Assembly (NCBI GenBank): GCA_002839315.1
Contig: PGXV01000002.1
Span: 186,001 to 250,000, forward strand
Direction: 5' to 3'
Length of the DNA stretch: 64,000 nucleotides
Source: Spirochaetae bacterium HGW-Spirochaetae-3
GTDB lineage: Bacteria; Spirochaetota; Spirochaetia; Treponematales; UBA12059
This document shows positions 37,443-45,667 of this stretch, piece after piece. The notes below the pieces were generated by a model, which had not been told where the DNA came from, searched no databases, and saw only the letters and a program-made list of their open reading frames with translations. The position numbers and the translations under genes were made by a program. Every line of letters begins with the position of its first letter. Position 1 is the first letter of the stretch.

Positions 37443-38246
37443 ATGCCGAAAGCCATCGTACTCGGGATCATCATAACGTTCGCGGCCTCTTTGCCCGTCG
37501 CGGCGGCGCCCCCGCTCAGGATCGCGGTCCCGGCGGCGGGCGAGGGCCTGCGCGCGGCCGAGCGATGGTCGGACCTGACCCGCGGCGCGCCCGCCGGATA
37601 CTCCATACAGGTGGCCATAGTCGAGGACGACCTCGCGGCGCGCTCCTTGCTCGCATCGAGGGACGCCGAGGCCGCGGTACTCGATCCGGTATCCTATCTG
37701 GCCTACGGTCCCGGGATCTATGTCGCCGCGATCATGGGAAGCTACGGCGGACCGTATGCCAGATTCTCGCTTATCGTCCCGGGATCATCCATCTTCCACC
37801 GCCTGTCCGATCTCCGCTCGGCCCGGGTCGCGTTCCGCGGTCCGCCGTCGGGAATCGCCGCTGCGTACGCGCATGCGTGGGCCCGTACCCTAGGGGCCTT
37901 CCCCGGCGGCGTCAGGGAGGAGATCGAGCTGGATTCCTTCGAGAGCGTACTGAGGGCCGTCGCGCTATCGGAGGTAGACGCCGGCTTCGTCCCGACGACG
38001 TTCCTGGAGAGCCTCGGGAGCTCGGTACTGCTCGAGAACGTACGAGAACTGGCCAGCTCTCCGCGAGTGCCGCTCGCGCTACTGGTCGTCCGGGAGGACC
38101 TGAGCGCCCAGCGCAAGGAACTGGCGTTGAATTGCGCCGAATGGATGGCAAGCGAGGGATCTCGAGGCCCCGTAACGCTACCCGATGAAACGCTTACGGT
38201 AATCCTCGCGGCGATGGCGGAGACGCTCCATGTCGCTACGCAGTAA
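37443..38246 (+). CDS. PhnD-like periplasmic binding protein (sensor component)
   Basis: 267 residues with signal peptide MPKAIVLGIIITFAASLPVAAA. It belongs to the PhnD/SsuA/transferrin-like binding fold: SLLASRDAEAAVLDPVSYLAYG, FSLIVPGSSIFHRLSDLRSARVAFRGPPSGIAA and ALSEVDAGFVPTTFLESL resemble the PhnD ligand loops. Such proteins bind phosphonates, phosphite or other oxyanions. It overlaps the kinase gene by 17 nt and is not followed by PhnC/PhnE. So a role as the periplasmic ligand receptor of the kinase, rather than a transporter subunit, is likely (inference). Confidence 0.78.
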   Translation: MPKAIVLGIIITFAASLPVAAAPPLRIAVPAAGEGLRAAERWSDLTRGAPAGYSIQVAIVEDDLAARSLLASRDAEAAVLDPVSYLAYGPGIYVAAIMGSYGGPYARFSLIVPGSSIFHRLSDLRSARVAFRGPPSGIAAAYAHAWARTLGAFPGGVREEIELDSFESVLRAVALSEVDAGFVPTTFLESLGSSVLLENVRELASSPRVPLALLVVREDLSAQRKELALNCAEWMASEGSRGPVTLPDETLTVILAAMAETLHVATQ

Positions 38247-39609
38247 ATTCGCGCTGTTCGCCATCGTCCTCTCCGTACTGGTCGCCGCGCAAGGAGCGGT
38301 CTCCTTCGAGCGGGAGCGACGCGCCCTCGTACAAGGAGTAGAGGAGCGGGCCCTGGTCCTGGTGCGTACCCTGGCCGACGCGGCCAGGGAACCGATCGCC
38401 TCTTCGCGGTATTACCTGCTGGACGCTCAGGTCAGGTCCATCCTTACCGAGCGGGACGCGGCCTACGCCAGGATACTAGACGACCGAGGGCGTATCGTCG
38501 CCGATACCAGACCCGGCTTCGTGGGCTGGAGCGTCTCGGGATCGGACCGATCGTCGACGCCCCTGTCGACCGACGGCGATACGCTCCTCGCCCGCGCGTC
38601 GATAGTGGTACCCGGGCGCGCCGACTGCCTGGCCGAGCTGGCGCTGAGGCTGGGCCCCCTACGCGAGAGGCTGGCCAGGAGCAGGGTCGTGCTGCTTCGC
38701 TTCGCGCTCGCCGAGCTGGGCGCATGCATCGCCTTCCTGGCGCTGTTATCGTTCCAGGTCCTCGGCCCCGTGCGCGCGCTGACGCGAACGCTCATCGCCG
38801 CGTCTCCCGACGGAGCGCCCGCGCCCATCCGCCTTCCCGGCGCGTCGGGGCCGGAGATCCGCAGCATCGCGAGGGCGGTCGACGAGCTACGGGTCCGCAT
38901 CGCCGAATACCAGGCCGAGCTGGTAGCGGAGGAGCGGCTGGCTACCATCGGCAAGATGGCGGCCGAGGTAGCCCACGAGGTACGGAATCCGCTGGAGGCT
39001 ATCTCCGGCGCCGCGGAGCTCTTGTCGCGGGGCGACGAACGCGACGAGTACATCGAAGTCATACGGCAGGAGGTGCGCTCGCTCGACGCGTACCTTTCCG
39101 GGATACTCGAGTTCGCCCGCGTCGGCGCGCAGGGTCCCGAGGCGTCCGACCTATCCGATCTCGTAGACGAGACGGCGGCGCTCGCCAGGCCGATGGCGAA
39201 GGAAGCGCGCATCCGCCTGCGCATCGGAGGACGGGGCGGCCCCTTGCCATGCAGCGTCGACAGGAGCGCCGTCAAGCGGGCTATCTTCAACCTCGTGGCC
39301 AACGCCGTAGAAGCCGGTCCGAGCGGTTCCGAGGTGCGCTTGGAGACGGACGCGGACGACTCGACGGTTCGTCTCAGGGTTATCGACGGGGGTCCCGGAC
39401 TGGACGCGGCGGTAAGGGAACGGGCGTTCGAGCCGTACTTCACCACCAAGCGAAAAGGTACGGGGCTCGGACTCGCCCTCGTGCGCCGCATCGCGGAATC
39501 GCACGGGGGCCGGGCGTACTTCGAGGACGGATCGCCGGGAACCACGGTCGTCCTTGAACTTCCCAAATACCCGACGGAAGCCGCGGACCGCCAGAGGGAG
39601 GGAGCATGA
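38230..39609 (+). CDS. Membrane sensor histidine kinase
   Basis: 459 residues. TM1 is at about 7-25, a periplasmic sensor region at 26-155 and TM2 at 157-182. A HAMP-like linker (183-235) follows, then HisKA with phospho-acceptor His249 in AEVAHEVRNPLEAISG, and HATPase with NLVANAVEA, VIDGGPGLD and KRKGTGLGLALV. The form is that of kinases paired with NtrC-type regulators. Its start lies within the PhnD-like gene and its stop overlaps the regulator start as ATGA. The three proteins should work as one signalling unit. Confidence 0.93.
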   Translation: MSLRSKFALFAIVLSVLVAAQGAVSFERERRALVQGVEERALVLVRTLADAAREPIASSRYYLLDAQVRSILTERDAAYARILDDRGRIVADTRPGFVGWSVSGSDRSSTPLSTDGDTLLARASIVVPGRADCLAELALRLGPLRERLARSRVVLLRFALAELGACIAFLALLSFQVLGPVRALTRTLIAASPDGAPAPIRLPGASGPEIRSIARAVDELRVRIAEYQAELVAEERLATIGKMAAEVAHEVRNPLEAISGAAELLSRGDERDEYIEVIRQEVRSLDAYLSGILEFARVGAQGPEASDLSDLVDETAALARPMAKEARIRLRIGGRGGPLPCSVDRSAVKRAIFNLVANAVEAGPSGSEVRLETDADDSTVRLRVIDGGPGLDAAVRERAFEPYFTTKRKGTGLGLALVRRIAESHGGRAYFEDGSPGTTVVLELPKYPTEAADRQREGA

Positions 39610-40907
39610 TGACCATCCTGCTCGTCGACGACAAGGAGAATATCCGCAAGGTCATGGGCACCGTGCTCGAGCGCGAGGGGTACGCGGTGCTGTCCGCCGC
39701 GGATGGACGGGAAGGCCTGGCGAAAGCGCTGGCCGAGGCGCCCGACCTGGTTATCTCCGACGTACGCATGGACGGCATGACGGGTATCGAGCTGTTCAGC
39801 GAGCTGCGCTCTCGAGGCGTATCGGCCCCCTTCATCCTCATCACCGCGTACGCGACCGTTCCCGAGGCGGTAGAGGCGATCAGGGACGGCGCCATACATT
39901 ACCTGTCCAAGCCGGTGAATTATCCGGAGCTGCTCCGCACGATACGCCGCGTGCTCGCCGACGCTTCAGGGAAGGCCGTCGTGGAGCGATCGGAGACGCG
40001 CCCCCTCGTAGGCTCGGGGCCCGCGATGCGCCGATTGCTGAGCAGGATAGACGCGATCGCCGACTCTGACGCGACGGTCCTCGTCCGAGGCGAGAACGGG
40101 ACCGGCAAGGAGCTCGTCGCACGGGCGCTTCACCGGAAGGGAAGGCGCCGCGACGGCCCCTTCGTCGCGGTGCATTGCGCGTCGTTCAATCCCAACCTGC
40201 TCGAGTCCGAGCTATTCGGATACGAGGCGGGCGCCTTCACCGGCGCCGGGCACAGGAAGGAGGGGCACCTCGAGGCTGCGCGCGGCGGGACGCTGTTCCT
40301 CGACGAGGTCTCGGAGATCGGCGGCGAACTCCAGGTCAAGCTCCTGCGGGTACTGCAGGAAAAGGCCTTCGCGCGCGTCGGGAGCACGAGGCTCGTCAAG
40401 ACCGACTTCAGGCTTATCGCGGCGAGCAATCGGGACCTGGCCGCCCTGGTCGGGGAAGGCCGGTTCAGGGAAGACCTCTACTACCGTCTCGACGTCGTCC
40501 CGGTCCTCGTCCCGCCGCTGCGCGAGCGGCTCGAGGACATCGAGTCGCTCGTCCGGCACTTCGCCGGCAGGGTAGCGGAGGCCGAAGGCTTCGAGGCTCC
40601 CGAACCGGACGCCGAGTTCCTGTCCCGCCTGAGGGAGCACTCCTGGCCGGGCAACGTCAGGGAGCTCGAGAACCTGATAGAGCGCCTGCTCGTCGTATAC
40701 CGCCCGTCGGCGCTGAGCTCCGGAATCCTTTCCGAAGAGGATCCCGTAAGGTTCCCCGCGGGCGACGGCATGGACGAGGAACGGCGGAGGACGCTCAGGG
40801 CGCTAGACGCGTGCGGCGGGAACAAGACCAAGGCCGCGAGGCTACTGGGAATATCGCGCCGGACCCTGTACTACCATCTCGATAGAGGTATCCCCCCCGA
40901 CGCATAG
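39606..40907 (+). CDS. NtrC-family sigma-54-dependent response regulator
   Basis: 433 residues. The receiver has Asp52 in LVISDVRMDGMTG and Lys in YLSKPVN. The AAA+ domain has Walker A GENGTGKE (162-169), the sigma-54-contact loop GAFTGA (209-214), Walker B GGTLFLDEVSEI and the R-finger region REDLYYRLDVVPV. A C-terminal Fis-type HTH (about 395-430, GGNKTKAARLLGISRRTLYYHL) follows. It drives open-complex formation by sigma-54 RNA polymerase when phosphorylated. Its likely target is the -24/-12 promoter at 41082-41099, directly downstream of its own gene. Confidence 0.95.
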   Translation: MMTILLVDDKENIRKVMGTVLEREGYAVLSAADGREGLAKALAEAPDLVISDVRMDGMTGIELFSELRSRGVSAPFILITAYATVPEAVEAIRDGAIHYLSKPVNYPELLRTIRRVLADASGKAVVERSETRPLVGSGPAMRRLLSRIDAIADSDATVLVRGENGTGKELVARALHRKGRRRDGPFVAVHCASFNPNLLESELFGYEAGAFTGAGHRKEGHLEAARGGTLFLDEVSEIGGELQVKLLRVLQEKAFARVGSTRLVKTDFRLIAASNRDLAALVGEGRFREDLYYRLDVVPVLVPPLRERLEDIESLVRHFAGRVAEAEGFEAPEPDAEFLSRLREHSWPGNVRELENLIERLLVVYRPSALSSGILSEEDPVRFPAGDGMDEERRRTLRALDACGGNKTKAARLLGISRRTLYYHLDRGIPPDA

Positions 40908-40916
40908 GACAGAAGA

Positions 40917-40974
40917 TGCGACAATGTGCGCAAATCCTACCGGCCGGCACGCGCGCTTGCACGAATCCGTGCAA
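40917..40974 (+). promoter_or_regulatory. Two NtrC-like enhancer palindromes
   Basis: TTGCACGAATCCGTGCAA (40957-40974) is a perfect inverted repeat. It has exactly the spacing of the known NtrC consensus TGCAC-N6-GTGCA. TGCGACAATGTGCGCA (40917-40932) is a weaker copy. Their centres are 41 bp apart, close to four helical turns. Both lie 110-165 bp upstream of the sigma-54 promoter, a normal enhancer distance. They are the presumed binding sites of the regulator encoded at 39606-40907. Confidence 0.72.
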
Positions 40975-41081
40975 TTCACCAGGGGATTCTCTTTGATAAA
41001 GCGCTCTAGAGATACCGGCCATTCGAGCCCCTCGTACGTATAGTACGGTCCGTCAAGGACTTGGCTAATTGCCCGGCAGGC

Positions 41082-41099
41082 TTGGCACGGCTACTGCAT
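41082..41099 (+). promoter_or_regulatory. Sigma-54 (-24/-12) promoter of the ABC transporter operon
   Basis: TTGGCACGGCTACTGCAT has GG at 41084-41085 and GC at 41096-41097 with ten bases between. It matches TGGCACG-N4-TTGCW at all but one position (C for T). Transcription would start near 41109, about 20 nt before the binding-protein ATG, which has GAGGGAGGTTCCT as ribosome site. Confidence 0.85.
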
Positions 41100-41129: not shown

Positions 41130-42167
41130 ATGTTCAAGTGGAAACGGATAGTCGCGATCATGATAGTAATGGCGATCGCCGGCGGCGCGGTCTTCGCGAT
41201 GGGCGACAAGGAAGCGGGCAAGGACGACATGCCCAAGACGGTAATCGTATATTCGAGCGTCGACGAGGGTAACACCAAGAAGCTGCTCGACGCGTTCACG
41301 GCCGATACCGGCATCACCGCCCAGTTCGTACAGCTGTCCTCGGGCCCGGCGCTCGCGAGGATCAAGGCGGAAGCCGCCAATCCGCAGGCCGACGTATGGC
41401 TCGGCGCTCCGAGCGAGAACCATATCGTCGCGAAGAAGGACGGCTTGACGATCCCGCATACGGGCGGGAACCTCGCCAGCCTTCAGCCGGCGTTCAAGGA
41501 TCCCGAAGGATACTGGCGCAGCTTCTACATGAACCCGATGGCGTTCGCCATCAACAAGGACATCCTGGCCCGCTCCGGCGCCTCGATGCCGAAGTCCTGG
41601 GCGGACCTCCTCGACCCCGCCTACAAGGGCCAGATCCAGATGCCGACCCCGCAGTCGTCGGGCACGGCGTATAACGTGGTAGCGTCCCTGGTGACCATGA
41701 TGGGCGAGGAGAAGGCCTACGATTACATGAAGCGGCTCGGCCCGAACATCCAGACGTATACGTCGTCGGGAACGGCCCCGTCCAAGGGCGTCTCCGTAGG
41801 CCAGTGCATGATAGGCCTGCAGTTCACGCCGGCGTTCTTCGAATTCATAGACCAGGGATTCCCCCTCGTCGTCGTATTCCCGGCCGAAGGCGTCTGGTTC
41901 GAGTCCCCCGCCGTCTCTATCCTCAAGGGCGGACCGAACCTCAAGGCCGCGCAGATCCTCGTGGAATGGCTCAGCTCGCCGAAAGGCCAGAGCGCCCTCA
42001 CCGAGCAGAAGACCTACTTCTATCCCATCATCCCGGGCGTCAAGCTAGGCGCTGGCATGCCCGCCTTCGAGACCCTCAAGACCATAGCCGTAGACCCGCT
42101 CTGGGCCGGCGCCGAGAAGAAGCGCCTCGTGGAACGCTGGGTCGCCGAAGTGCTGCCGGCAAAATAA
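41130..42167 (+). CDS. ABC transporter substrate-binding protein (COG1840, FbpA/AfuA/PgtC-like)
   Basis: 345 residues with signal peptide MFKWKRIVAIMIVMAIAGGAVFA. Class II periplasmic binding protein of the ferric-iron/2-aminoethylphosphonate/sugar-phosphate group: TVIVYSSVDEGNTKKLLDAFTADTGI, PQADVWLGAPSENHI, YMNPMAFAINKD, SWADLLDPAYKGQIQMP and SSGTAYNVVASLV. The tandem Tyr iron ligands of FbpA are not evident, so an organic phosphate or phosphonate ligand is more likely than iron (inference). The ATG at 41130 is chosen for its ribosome site. First gene of the sigma-54 operon. Confidence 0.88.
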   Translation: MFKWKRIVAIMIVMAIAGGAVFAMGDKEAGKDDMPKTVIVYSSVDEGNTKKLLDAFTADTGITAQFVQLSSGPALARIKAEAANPQADVWLGAPSENHIVAKKDGLTIPHTGGNLASLQPAFKDPEGYWRSFYMNPMAFAINKDILARSGASMPKSWADLLDPAYKGQIQMPTPQSSGTAYNVVASLVTMMGEEKAYDYMKRLGPNIQTYTSSGTAPSKGVSVGQCMIGLQFTPAFFEFIDQGFPLVVVFPAEGVWFESPAVSILKGGPNLKAAQILVEWLSSPKGQSALTEQKTYFYPIIPGVKLGAGMPAFETLKTIAVDPLWAGAEKKRLVERWVAEVLPAK

Positions 42168-42240: not shown

Positions 42241-43932
42241 ATGCAGCGAAAACGCTTCGAACGAGCCAGGGCCGAACTGCGCCGGGTCGCGAAGGATCCG
42301 GTATTGACGATCATCATAGTAGCGGTACTCGCGGCGCTCGCCCTCTTCATAATCTACCCGCTCGTCATGGTCGTCTTCGCGAGCCTGCGCCCCGACGGGA
42401 AATGGAGCCTCGGGGTACTACGCGAGGTCCTGGGCAACGCGTATCTCGGACTGGCGTTCCGCAACAGCATCATGATGGGCGCGCTCACCGCGGTCATCGG
42501 CACCGGCATAGGATTCCTCTTCGCCTTCGCGGTAACGCGGGCGGACGTACCGTTAAAGCGATTCCTCCACGCTATCGCCATCATCCCCATCGTCTCGCCG
42601 CCCTTCATCGGGGCGCTCGCCATCATCATGCTCTTCGGGAATAACGGGCTCATCACCTGGAACCTGCTGCGGATACAGAACTTCCCGATCTACGGATTCC
42701 GGGGGCTCATGTTCGCCCAGGCCATTACGTTCTTCCCGGTAGCCTATATGACCCTACGGGGGGTGCTCGAATCCATCAATCCGACGCTCGAGGACGCGGC
42801 GCTCGACCTGGGCGGTTCGCGGCTCAAGGTGTTCATGAGGGTGACGCTTCCCCTGGCCGCCCCCGGGATAGCCAGCGCCATGCTGGTGCTGTTCATCGAG
42901 ACGCTCGCCGACTTCGGCAACCCGCTGATCCTGGCGGGCAGCAGGTTCCCGATACTCTCGGTCCAGGCATACCTGGAGATAACCGGCATGTACGACCTGC
43001 CGAAGGGCGCGACGCTCTCCATACTCCTGCTCATACCCTCGATCACCGCGTGGATAATCCAGAAGTACTGGGTCTCCCGCAAGCGCTACGTCACCATTAC
43101 CGGCAAGCCGACGAAGAGCTCGTCCAAGATCGTCAGCCCCGGCGCCAGGGCCGCCGTCTTCGCCGCCTGCCTGTTCGTCGCGGCCGTCGTGATCCTCGTA
43201 TACCTGGCCATCATATGGGGCGCCTTCGCGAACGTCTGGGGGAACGACAATACCCCGACGCTCAGGCATTTCCGGTACGTCTTCAGCGTCGGCTTCAAGG
43301 CCGTGCGCGACACCCTGATCATAGCCGGGCTGTCGACGCCGATAGCCGGGATGCTGGGCATGGTCATAGCGTTCCTCGTCGTCAGGAAGAGCTTTCCGGG
43401 CAGGCGGTTCATGGAATTCACGAGCATGCTCAGCTTCGCCGTTCCGGGCACGGTGATAGGCATAGGCTACATACTCGCGTTCAACCGGCGGCCGCTGGCC
43501 CTTACGGGGACGCTCGCCATACTGCTGCTCAACTTCGTGTTCCGCTACATACCGGTGGGGATCGAGTCGGGCAGGGCCATACTGATGCAGATAGACCCGT
43601 CCATCGAGGAAGCCGCGATAGACCTGGGCGCCGACTCCAGGAAGACCTTCTCCAGGGTCACCCTGCCGATGATAGTGCCGGCCTACTTCTCCGGCCTCGT
43701 CTTCACGTTCGTACGGGCGATGACGGCCATCAGCGCCGCCATCTTCCTGGTATCCGCGCGCTGGAACCTGATGACCGTGCAGATCATGTCCCAGGTGGAG
43801 TCGGGGCGCATCGGCGCCGCCGCCGCTTTCAGCGTCATCCTCGTCGCGATCATCTTCGCGGCCATATTCATGATACGCGCGCTCCTGCGGGCGCGCTACG
43901 GCCGCTACGGCGGCTCCATGCTCAACTTCTGA
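42241..43932 (+). CDS. ABC transporter permease, fused double permease (FbpB/ThiP-like)
   Basis: 563 residues with about twelve membrane segments in two homologous halves. Each half has an EAA coupling loop: LEDAALDLGGSRLKVFMRVTLPLAAPGI near residue 182 and IEEAAIDLGADSRKTFSRVTLPMIVPAYF near 455. The fused arrangement is usual for iron(III), thiamine and aminoethylphosphonate importers. GCAGGAGAAGTCCAGA-ATG precedes it. It forms the pore for the 41130 binding protein, with energy from the 43943 ATPase. Confidence 0.93.
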   Translation: MQRKRFERARAELRRVAKDPVLTIIIVAVLAALALFIIYPLVMVVFASLRPDGKWSLGVLREVLGNAYLGLAFRNSIMMGALTAVIGTGIGFLFAFAVTRADVPLKRFLHAIAIIPIVSPPFIGALAIIMLFGNNGLITWNLLRIQNFPIYGFRGLMFAQAITFFPVAYMTLRGVLESINPTLEDAALDLGGSRLKVFMRVTLPLAAPGIASAMLVLFIETLADFGNPLILAGSRFPILSVQAYLEITGMYDLPKGATLSILLLIPSITAWIIQKYWVSRKRYVTITGKPTKSSSKIVSPGARAAVFAACLFVAAVVILVYLAIIWGAFANVWGNDNTPTLRHFRYVFSVGFKAVRDTLIIAGLSTPIAGMLGMVIAFLVVRKSFPGRRFMEFTSMLSFAVPGTVIGIGYILAFNRRPLALTGTLAILLLNFVFRYIPVGIESGRAILMQIDPSIEEAAIDLGADSRKTFSRVTLPMIVPAYFSGLVFTFVRAMTAISAAIFLVSARWNLMTVQIMSQVESGRIGAAAAFSVILVAIIFAAIFMIRALLRARYGRYGGSMLNF

Positions 43933-43942
43933 GGGGTCCGCC

Positions 43943-45055
43943 ATGAGCGTACGACTGATAGACGTTACCAAGGTATTCGAAGACCCTTCCCGCCCGGGAG
44001 GCGGGGTCGTCGCCGTCGACGGGGTCAACCTCGACGTCGCCGAAGGAGAACTGGTCACCTTCCTCGGCCCGTCCGGCTGCGGCAAGACGACGACGCTGCG
44101 CATCGTCTCGGGATTCGAGTCGCCGACCGCCGGCGACGTCATGATCGGCGGGGCGCGGGTCAACGACGAGCCGCCCAACAAGCGCGACACGTCCATGGTG
44201 TTCCAGAGCTACGCCATCTTCCCGCACATGTCGGTAGAGCAGAACGTCTCCTTCGGGCTCGAGCTGAAGGGCCGGCCCAAGGCCGTCGTCCGCGAGGAAA
44301 CGGCCAGGATCATGGACGTCATGGGCCTGACCGACATGGCGAAGCGCCGCCCGGACCAGCTGTCCGGCGGGCAGCAGCAGCGCGTCGCGCTGGCGAGGGC
44401 CATAGTCAACAAGCCCAAGGTCCTGCTGTTCGACGAGCCTCTCTCCAACCTCGACGCCAAGCTGCGCGACCAGATGCGCCTCGAGATACGGCGCATCCAG
44501 CAGACGTTCGGCATAACGAGCATCTACGTGACCCACGACCAGGTGGAGGCGATGACCGTCTCCGACCGCATCGTCGTCATGAACAAGGGGCGGGTCATGC
44601 AGGTCGGCGCTCCGTTCGAGGTATACTCGAGGCCGGCCGACCGTTTCGTAGCGGACTTCATCGGCAGGGTCAACTTCTTCGACGGCCGTGCCGTCGGGAG
44701 CGCGGAGCCGTTCCGCGTAGACCTGGGGGGAAGGATAGTCGAGGTCGGTAGCCGCGTCCGCGGTATCGTCGAGGGAGGCGAGGCGGTCGTCGCGGTGAGG
44801 CCGGAATCCCTGCGCCTGCGCCCGGCGGCCGAGGGCGGCTCGTCGTTCGCCTCGGGCAGGGTGACCAAGGCCGTATACCTCGGCTCGGTCATCGAGTACG
44901 AGATCGACGCCGGTTTCGAGCGCCCGGTGCTCGCGGTATCCCACGACCCGGTAGACGCGGGATTCTTCTCCGTCGGCGACGCCGTCGCGCTCGACTTCCC
45001 CGCCCGGGCGGCCCACGCGCTCGCGCCGGAGCCGCGGGGAACCGGCGACGAGTGA
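43943..45055 (+). CDS. ABC transporter ATP-binding protein (FbpC/PotA/UgpC-like, with TOBE domain)
   Basis: 370 residues. Walker A is GPSGCGKTT, the signature is LSGGQQQRVALARAI, and Walker B is VLLFDEPLSNLDAKLRDQMR. THDQVEAMTVSDRIVVMNKG gives the H-loop. The C-terminal TOBE region (about 285-360: VAVRPESLRLRP, VYLGSVIEYEIDAG) is normal for MalK/PotA-type ATPases of this import class. It begins 10 nt after the permease stop with GAGGGGTCCGCC-ATG. Last intact gene of the operon. Confidence 0.94.
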   Translation: MSVRLIDVTKVFEDPSRPGGGVVAVDGVNLDVAEGELVTFLGPSGCGKTTTLRIVSGFESPTAGDVMIGGARVNDEPPNKRDTSMVFQSYAIFPHMSVEQNVSFGLELKGRPKAVVREETARIMDVMGLTDMAKRRPDQLSGGQQQRVALARAIVNKPKVLLFDEPLSNLDAKLRDQMRLEIRRIQQTFGITSIYVTHDQVEAMTVSDRIVVMNKGRVMQVGAPFEVYSRPADRFVADFIGRVNFFDGRAVGSAEPFRVDLGGRIVEVGSRVRGIVEGGEAVVAVRPESLRLRPAAEGGSSFASGRVTKAVYLGSVIEYEIDAGFERPVLAVSHDPVDAGFFSVGDAVALDFPARAAHALAPEPRGTGDE

Positions 45056-45086
45056 CCTCTGTACCGGGATCGTCTCTACGCTCGTA

Positions 45087-45667
45087 TCGCGAAGGCCGGA
45101 ACTTTACGGTTGCGACTCCGACATACTTACCGGCGCGAGGATGCTCAGCGACGGAGCGCGGCGGGGCGTGACTACCCTCGCATGTGGGAACGGGGGCAGC
45201 GCCGCTGACTCCGATCACTTGGTCGTGGAATTCATGGAAGGCTTCCTTCTGCCCCGTCCGCTATCGGAGGCGGAAGAACGAAAGCTAGAAAACGCCAGGG
45301 ACTCGCGGAAGACTTGTCCGGCCACCTGCAGCGGGGCATCAGGGCGATATCGCTCGCCTCTAATAGTGCCCTCCTGACGGCCATACTCAACGACCAGGGA
45401 CCGGGCTCCATCTTCGCCCAGCAGGTCATGGGCTACGGGAAGGCAGGGGACGTGCTGATCCGCCTGAGCACGTCGGGAAGCTCACGCAACATCGTGGCAC
45501 CCGGCTCGACGGCCAAGGCGATGGGGCTCGCTACCCTCACGCTCACGGGCCCGAATGGCGGCTTGCTCAAGGGTCTCTGCGACATCGCCATTCGCGGCCC
45601 CGGCAGCAACGCCGGCGAGATCCAGGATGCCCCCCGGGCGGGCCGGTTCCGGCCGGGTTGGACTTGA
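45087..45667 (+). pseudogene. SIS-domain sugar-phosphate isomerase (GmhA-like), frameshifted
   Basis: The first part encodes DSDILTGARMLSDGARRGV followed by TTLACGNGGSAADSDHL, the hallmark SIS sugar-phosphate loop. Near 45297 the frame shifts by one base. The +1 related frame then continues LAEDLSGHLQRG, ISLASNSALLTAILND, AQQVMGYGKAGDVLIRLSTSGSS and GEIQDA, as in phosphoheptose isomerases. The C-terminus after GEIQDA is lost. It starts about 30 nt after the ABC ATPase gene in host-like DNA. It may once have been the last gene of that operon, which would hint at a phosphorylated sugar substrate. A sequencing error could explain the single shift but not the missing end. Confidence 0.78.

Follow-up and report, generated by a model that had tools for sequence, protein, structure and literature searches.

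A putative sigma-54-dependent control region, conserved in spirochaete-like bacteria, between an NtrC-family regulator gene and an organophosphate-type importer operon

In the 64-kb window (the whole stretch of DNA that was analysed), a set of ABC importer genes follows a two-component system, and the question raised by this locus is whether the 222-bp spacer between them controls the importer and which protein would act on it. All genes lie on the plus strand, in the order PhnD-like periplasmic protein, histidine kinase, NtrC-family regulator, spacer, and importer genes (Table 1), and the ends of the sensor, kinase, and regulator genes overlap successively. The PhnD-like protein carries an N-terminal hydrophobic signal-like segment, and orthologs of its gene precede the kinase gene in loci L123-L126, L162, L170, and L185. 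The kinase displays an outer domain between two hydrophobic segments (residues 1-19 and 152-170). The regulator combines a receiver domain, an AAA+ domain with the GAFTGA motif, and a Fis-type helix-turn-helix (HTH), which is the composition of an NtrC-family enhancer-binding protein, and its recognition helix RRTLY is conserved. An initial sequence-only reading had stated that the regulator gene ends just upstream of the control elements, and this was borne out by the open reading frames, with the regulator stop at 40907 and the next ATG, that of the binding-protein gene, at 41130. PhnU2 was the best curated match of the permease, at a score under the PhnU2 cut-off. Behind the ATPase gene (45066-45637), a gmhA-like gene was found broken across two frames (query positions 6-102 and 94-201), as a result of either gene decay or misassembly; the gene is intact in L125 and L126.

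Table 1. Features of the locus (positions in the window).
Feature	Position	Strand	Basis
PhnD-like periplasmic binding protein gene, probable signal-sensing subunit	37443..38246	+	Pfam PF12974, E 1.5e-16
Sensor histidine kinase gene	38230..39609	+	HisKA + HATPase_c
NtrC-family response regulator/enhancer-binding protein gene, presumed activator	39606..40907	+	Response_reg, Sigma54_activat, HTH_8
Half-site TTGCGCACA, 6.9 bits	40925..40933	-	Matrix scan, matrix from other genomes only
TTGCACGAATCCGTGCAA: inverted half-sites TTGCACGAA (+, 3.5 bits) and TTGCACGGA (-, 6.3 bits), centres 11 bp apart	40957..40974	.	Position matches half-site arrays in 16 other genomes
Predicted sigma-54 promoter TTGGCACGGCTACTGCA	41082..41098	+	12/13 consensus bases; kept before same gene in relatives
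Substrate-binding protein gene, AfuA/P5PA-type importer, putative first gene of controlled operon	41130..42167	+	SBP_bac_8 + SBP_bac_6
Fused two-domain ABC permease gene	42241..43932	+	BPD_transp_1
ABC transporter ATPase gene	43943..45055	+	ABC_tran + TOBE_2

The downstream part of the spacer contains the element TTGGCACG-GCTA-CTGCA. The near-consensus sigma-54 promoter that had been proposed here was confirmed as a sequence match, at the level of agreement given in Table 1 and with correct GG-N10-GC spacing: the GG (41084-41085) and the GC (41096-41097) are 10 bp apart within the pattern TTGGCACG-N4-TTGC[A/T], which predicts a transcription start at about 41109. When the spacer was put through 2000 dinucleotide shuffles, a single one reached an equally good promoter score, and TTGGCA[CT]G-N4-[TC]TGCA occurred a single time when both strands of the window were scanned. 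The looser pattern TGGCAYGNNNNYTGCW was not enriched genome-wide (10 matches versus 9 for the reversed control); therefore, the case for the promoter is carried by its position and conservation and not by the match alone. The genome encodes rpoN (PF04552 match, E 3.3e-54), and a scan of the spacer revealed neither a sigma-70-type promoter nor a terminator.

Upstream of this element lies TTGCACGAATCCGTGCAA, which had been described as a perfect palindrome with the exact half-site spacing of the enteric NtrC site. Both descriptions had to be corrected. The sequence pairs at 8 of 9 positions, with arms of 7+7 around AATC, and its TGCAC-N6-GTGCA core spans 16 bp, one less than the 17-bp enteric box TGCACCAnnnTGGTGCA (TGCAC-N7-GTGCA) (PMC8743547); the enteric box was rejected as a candidate, and the window holds no N7 match. 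Of the weaker copy said to be 41 bp away, the distance is right, as TTGCGCACA lies 41 bp from the right arm, but only this one half-site is recognisable and there is no second palindrome. TGCAC-N4-8-GTGCA appeared in 1 of 2000 shuffles of the spacer, and inverted arms of at least 7 bp, of any sequence, appeared in 197 of 2000; thus, the TGCAC letters count for more than the symmetry. The suggested scan for a regulon did not produce one, since TTGCAC-N6-GTGCAA, the pattern of TTGCACGAATCCGTGCAA, occurs once in the 3.88-Mb genome and no second target was found. The shorter TGCAC-N6-GTGCA was present at 4 places, compared to 3 in the control, and the nearest look-alike (C14:89857) was discarded because it lies within coding sequence. 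Looking for autoregulation of the sensor-kinase-regulator operon, we found no TGCAC or GTGCA 5′ of the sensor gene, either in the window or in G015 and G020, and a single TGCAC at this place in G005. Given shuffle support together with genome-wide background counts, the window alone is suggestive, and the decision lies with its relatives.

Using the regulator and the permease as queries, we identified 16 further loci with kinase and regulator orthologs directly before the same transporter. All 16 carry a -24/-12 (GG-N10-GC) element before the binding-protein gene, and all 16 carry at least two TTGCACA-type half-sites 3′ of the regulator stop. Within the first 90 bases past this stop, GCACA was the most over-represented 5-mer (51 copies, present in 16/16 loci), compared to a maximum of 20 copies for any 5-mer across 100 shuffle sets. 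A half-site matrix, which was built without the window, gave the consensus TTGCACA plus two weaker positions. The half-sites follow each other in steps of 9-14 or 19-25 bp with a best period of 10.9 bp, a periodicity not reached by any of 5000 random placements. Among adjacent pairs in the relatives, 19 of 26 had the same orientation, 4 were everted, and 3 were inverted. In most loci, the sigma-54 element ends 32-41 nt ahead of the start codon; in L185, this distance is 64 nt. For L162 and L175, the scorer favoured another place; GG-N10-GC elements (GGCATGAATCCTGC and GGCATAGTTCTTGC) are nevertheless readable in the sequence. The distance between array and promoter ranged from 36 to 238 bp in loci with both clearly placed, a variability that is expected if the activator acts by looping.

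The clearest purely direct array was observed in L175, where five copies of GCACA in direct orientation follow each other at steps of about 11 bp across bases 33-77 past the regulator stop; these copies mostly have GG or AG in front, not TTG. A comparison by eye linked no DNA-binding-domain residue consistently to the GGCACA variant of L175 and L185. The half-sites in the window read TGCACG and are the weakest of all loci, scoring 3.5-6.9 bits compared to mostly 8-14.5 bits in the relatives. They may represent a co-evolved variant, drift, or partial decay of the operator. The C-terminal tail of the window regulator, YYHLDRGIPPDA, is shorter and divergent; there, the relatives have K or R, and the end of their helix is longer. 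Co-drift of the weak half-sites and the divergent regulator C terminus is possible.

As controls, we used 13 similar transporters without an adjoining regulator, comprising 8 close relatives of the window transporter and 5 more distant ones. Neither promoter nor half-sites were found within 320 bp of any of them, so that activator sites were present at 16/16 loci with the regulator and at 0/13 without it. The window's own genome contains a second, more distant transporter of this type (L191; G000:C17:3525-5135; permease 47% identical), which has no adjoining two-component pair and none of these sites. These comparisons bear on the possibility that palindrome and promoter match are functionless chance resemblances. 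Such a coincidence would fit the genome-wide pattern counts, which equal those of the controls, and the inverted arms of at least 7 bp seen in about 10% of shuffles; however, both elements are conserved in 16 other loci and absent from the control transporters, which makes it extremely improbable. On this comparative evidence, the promoter and the half-sites are very likely functional.

Both elements were kept, with no regulator in the stretch examined, at L163, L165, and L195, which belong to a single genus. In G477 and G514, a regulator ortholog was located on another contig (67-68% identical to that of G415), and the surroundings of these unlinked regulators showed no sigma-54-like site and a lone half-site at most. 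In these genomes (G477:C86 and G514:C331; L214 and L215), the kinase and regulator genes have left the transporter, while the half-sites remained with it. No regulator ortholog was found in the incomplete assembly of the third genome of this genus. Conversely, G030, G033, and G146 encode only regulator paralogs of 43-44% identity, and promoter and half-sites are absent. The sites therefore go with the orthologous regulator, whether or not the two are linked. In one of these genomes (L211 in G030), the same transporter is preceded by another AAA+ regulator (43% over the AAA+ domain), with no half-sites and no promoter pattern, an apparent swap of the regulator.

This tracking also speaks to the question of which protein reads the half-sites. 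Some other protein could bind them, for instance a repressor or a nucleoid protein, with the regulator driving the sigma-54 promoter without specific enhancer sites, and the varying orientation of the half-sites, unusual for a dimeric Fis-type HTH protein, would agree with this. We nevertheless consider it unlikely, because the sites accompany the regulator ortholog across contigs and because Nla28, an NtrC-type regulator, offers a precedent for the reading of half-sites in tandem (PMC9765219). Alternatively, the promoter could be of the true NtrC or nitrogen type, with another NtrC-like protein binding the palindrome and the operon answering to nitrogen. Related activators number at least 13 in this genome, and the enteric NtrC box has similar TGCAC half-sites (PMC8743547), but the spacing is N6 instead of N7, the CA/TG inside the box is missing, and, genome by genome, the sites track the orthologous regulator and not other NtrC-like proteins. 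This alternative is thus very improbable. The regulator itself was rejected as NtrC proper (NR(I)), scoring 399.8 bits compared to an equivalog cut-off of 558.6. A sigma-54 promoter with upstream activator sites and the activator encoded next door, as the sequence-only reading had envisaged, is upheld by the presence of rpoN, by the fitting regulator domains, and by elements that are conserved with the regulator and absent without it. Its wording of an NtrC-like enhancer pair found no support, since the spacing differs, the regulator falls below the NtrC cut-off, and the relatives carry arrays of half-sites, mostly direct repeats.

We next considered what the importer might carry. The solved structures nearest to the binding protein are 8x1a, AfuA (4r72), and P5PA (6wce). 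The residues of AfuA that contact phosphate (S37, S148, G149, and T150) align with the same residues in the window protein and are largely kept across the clade. The sugar-contacting residues H205, D206, and E229 correspond to Pro, Ala, and Glu in the window protein, so that one of the three is kept, and Pro and Ala occupy the H205 and D206 positions throughout the binding-protein clade. AfuA without H205 and D206 does not bind glucose-6-phosphate (PMC4546632), and an identity as AfuA was ruled out on these pocket residues. Phosphate contacts that are kept next to replaced H205 and D206 suggest that the cargo is probably a phosphorylated compound, an organophosphate, that is not bound in AfuA's way. 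In L125, L126, L161, and L171, the transporter is closely followed by a gmhA-like gene (sedoheptulose-7-phosphate isomerase family), and L162 and L176 have one in the vicinity, which hints at a heptose or ketose phosphate.

Taken together, we consider it highly probable, from comparative sequence analysis, that the spacer is the control region of an AfuABC/P5PAB-type importer operon, at which a three-part sensor acts through the regulator on the half-sites and thereby on the sigma-54 promoter. In this scheme, the PhnD-like periplasmic protein would bind an organophosphate and engage the membrane kinase, which would phosphorylate the regulator. Gene content and topology (a binding protein, a kinase with an outer domain, and a regulator) fit such a three-part sensor of the HptASR kind, in which the binding protein would dock on the outer domain. 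The phosphorylated regulator would then bind the TTGCAC half-sites, which lie about one helical turn apart immediately 3′ of the regulator gene, and would act by DNA looping to drive open-complex formation by sigma-54 RNA polymerase at TTGGCACG-N4-CTGCA. The direction of regulation is presumed to be positive, the importer being made when the ligand is present.

The region appears to be a genuine, if fairly ordinary, switch that is conserved in spirochaete-like relatives, and the arrangement was not found described in a limited search of the open-access literature. It forms a compact set of sensor, kinase, activator, operator, promoter, and transporter, and from genome to genome of spirochaete-like bacteria the operator is found together with the regulator. 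The transporters, annotated as 'iron' or '2-aminoethylphosphonate', would constitute another group of probable organophosphate importers. The half-site layouts of the orthologs provide a natural series on how far NtrC-family proteins tolerate changes in half-site orientation. A bolder proposal, possible though somewhat on the doubtful side, is that this regulator family reads TTGCACA half-sites with a fixed helical face and spacing and free orientation (direct, inverted, or everted) and that the importer ligand is new to AfuA-type proteins. If true, orientation-free reading would mean that a dimeric activator with a Fis-type HTH uses an unusual operator grammar.

Several known systems share parts of this arrangement. 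Like enteric glnA-type control by NtrC (PMC8743547), it combines an NtrC-family regulator, TGCAC half-sites, and activator sites 5′ of a sigma-54 promoter, but it differs in the 16-bp spacing, in the mostly direct half-site arrays of the relatives, and in its context of organophosphate-type uptake instead of nitrogen. Nla28 of Myxococcus xanthus, an NtrC-type regulator, uses short clusters of tandem half-sites 5′ of sigma-54 promoters (PMC9765219); its half-sites read CT[C/G]CG[C/G]AG with variable spacers, whereas those described here read TTGCACA with a spacing of about one helical turn. In HptASR of Staphylococcus aureus, a binding protein, a sensor kinase, and a response regulator govern sugar phosphate uptake (PMC8774646). 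That system controls the antiporter UhpT, in contrast to an ABC importer with a sigma-54 promoter and an NtrC-type regulator. A sigma-54-type response regulator tied to organophosphate uptake is also shared with PgtABC-type phosphoglycerate regulators; however, the window regulator falls far under the cut-off of the PgtA model (188.4 bits versus 650), and this identity was rejected. The sugar-phosphate importer AfuABC (PMC4546632) shares the binding-protein fold family and the conserved phosphate-binding residues, but the present importers differ in the Pro/Ala replacement of H205/D206 in the whole clade, in the fused permease, and in having their own three-part regulator. Finally, the pyridoxal-phosphate binding protein P5PA (PMC8427247) is homologous and has a phosphate pocket, and its His203, at the position of AfuA H205, is replaced by Pro in the window protein.
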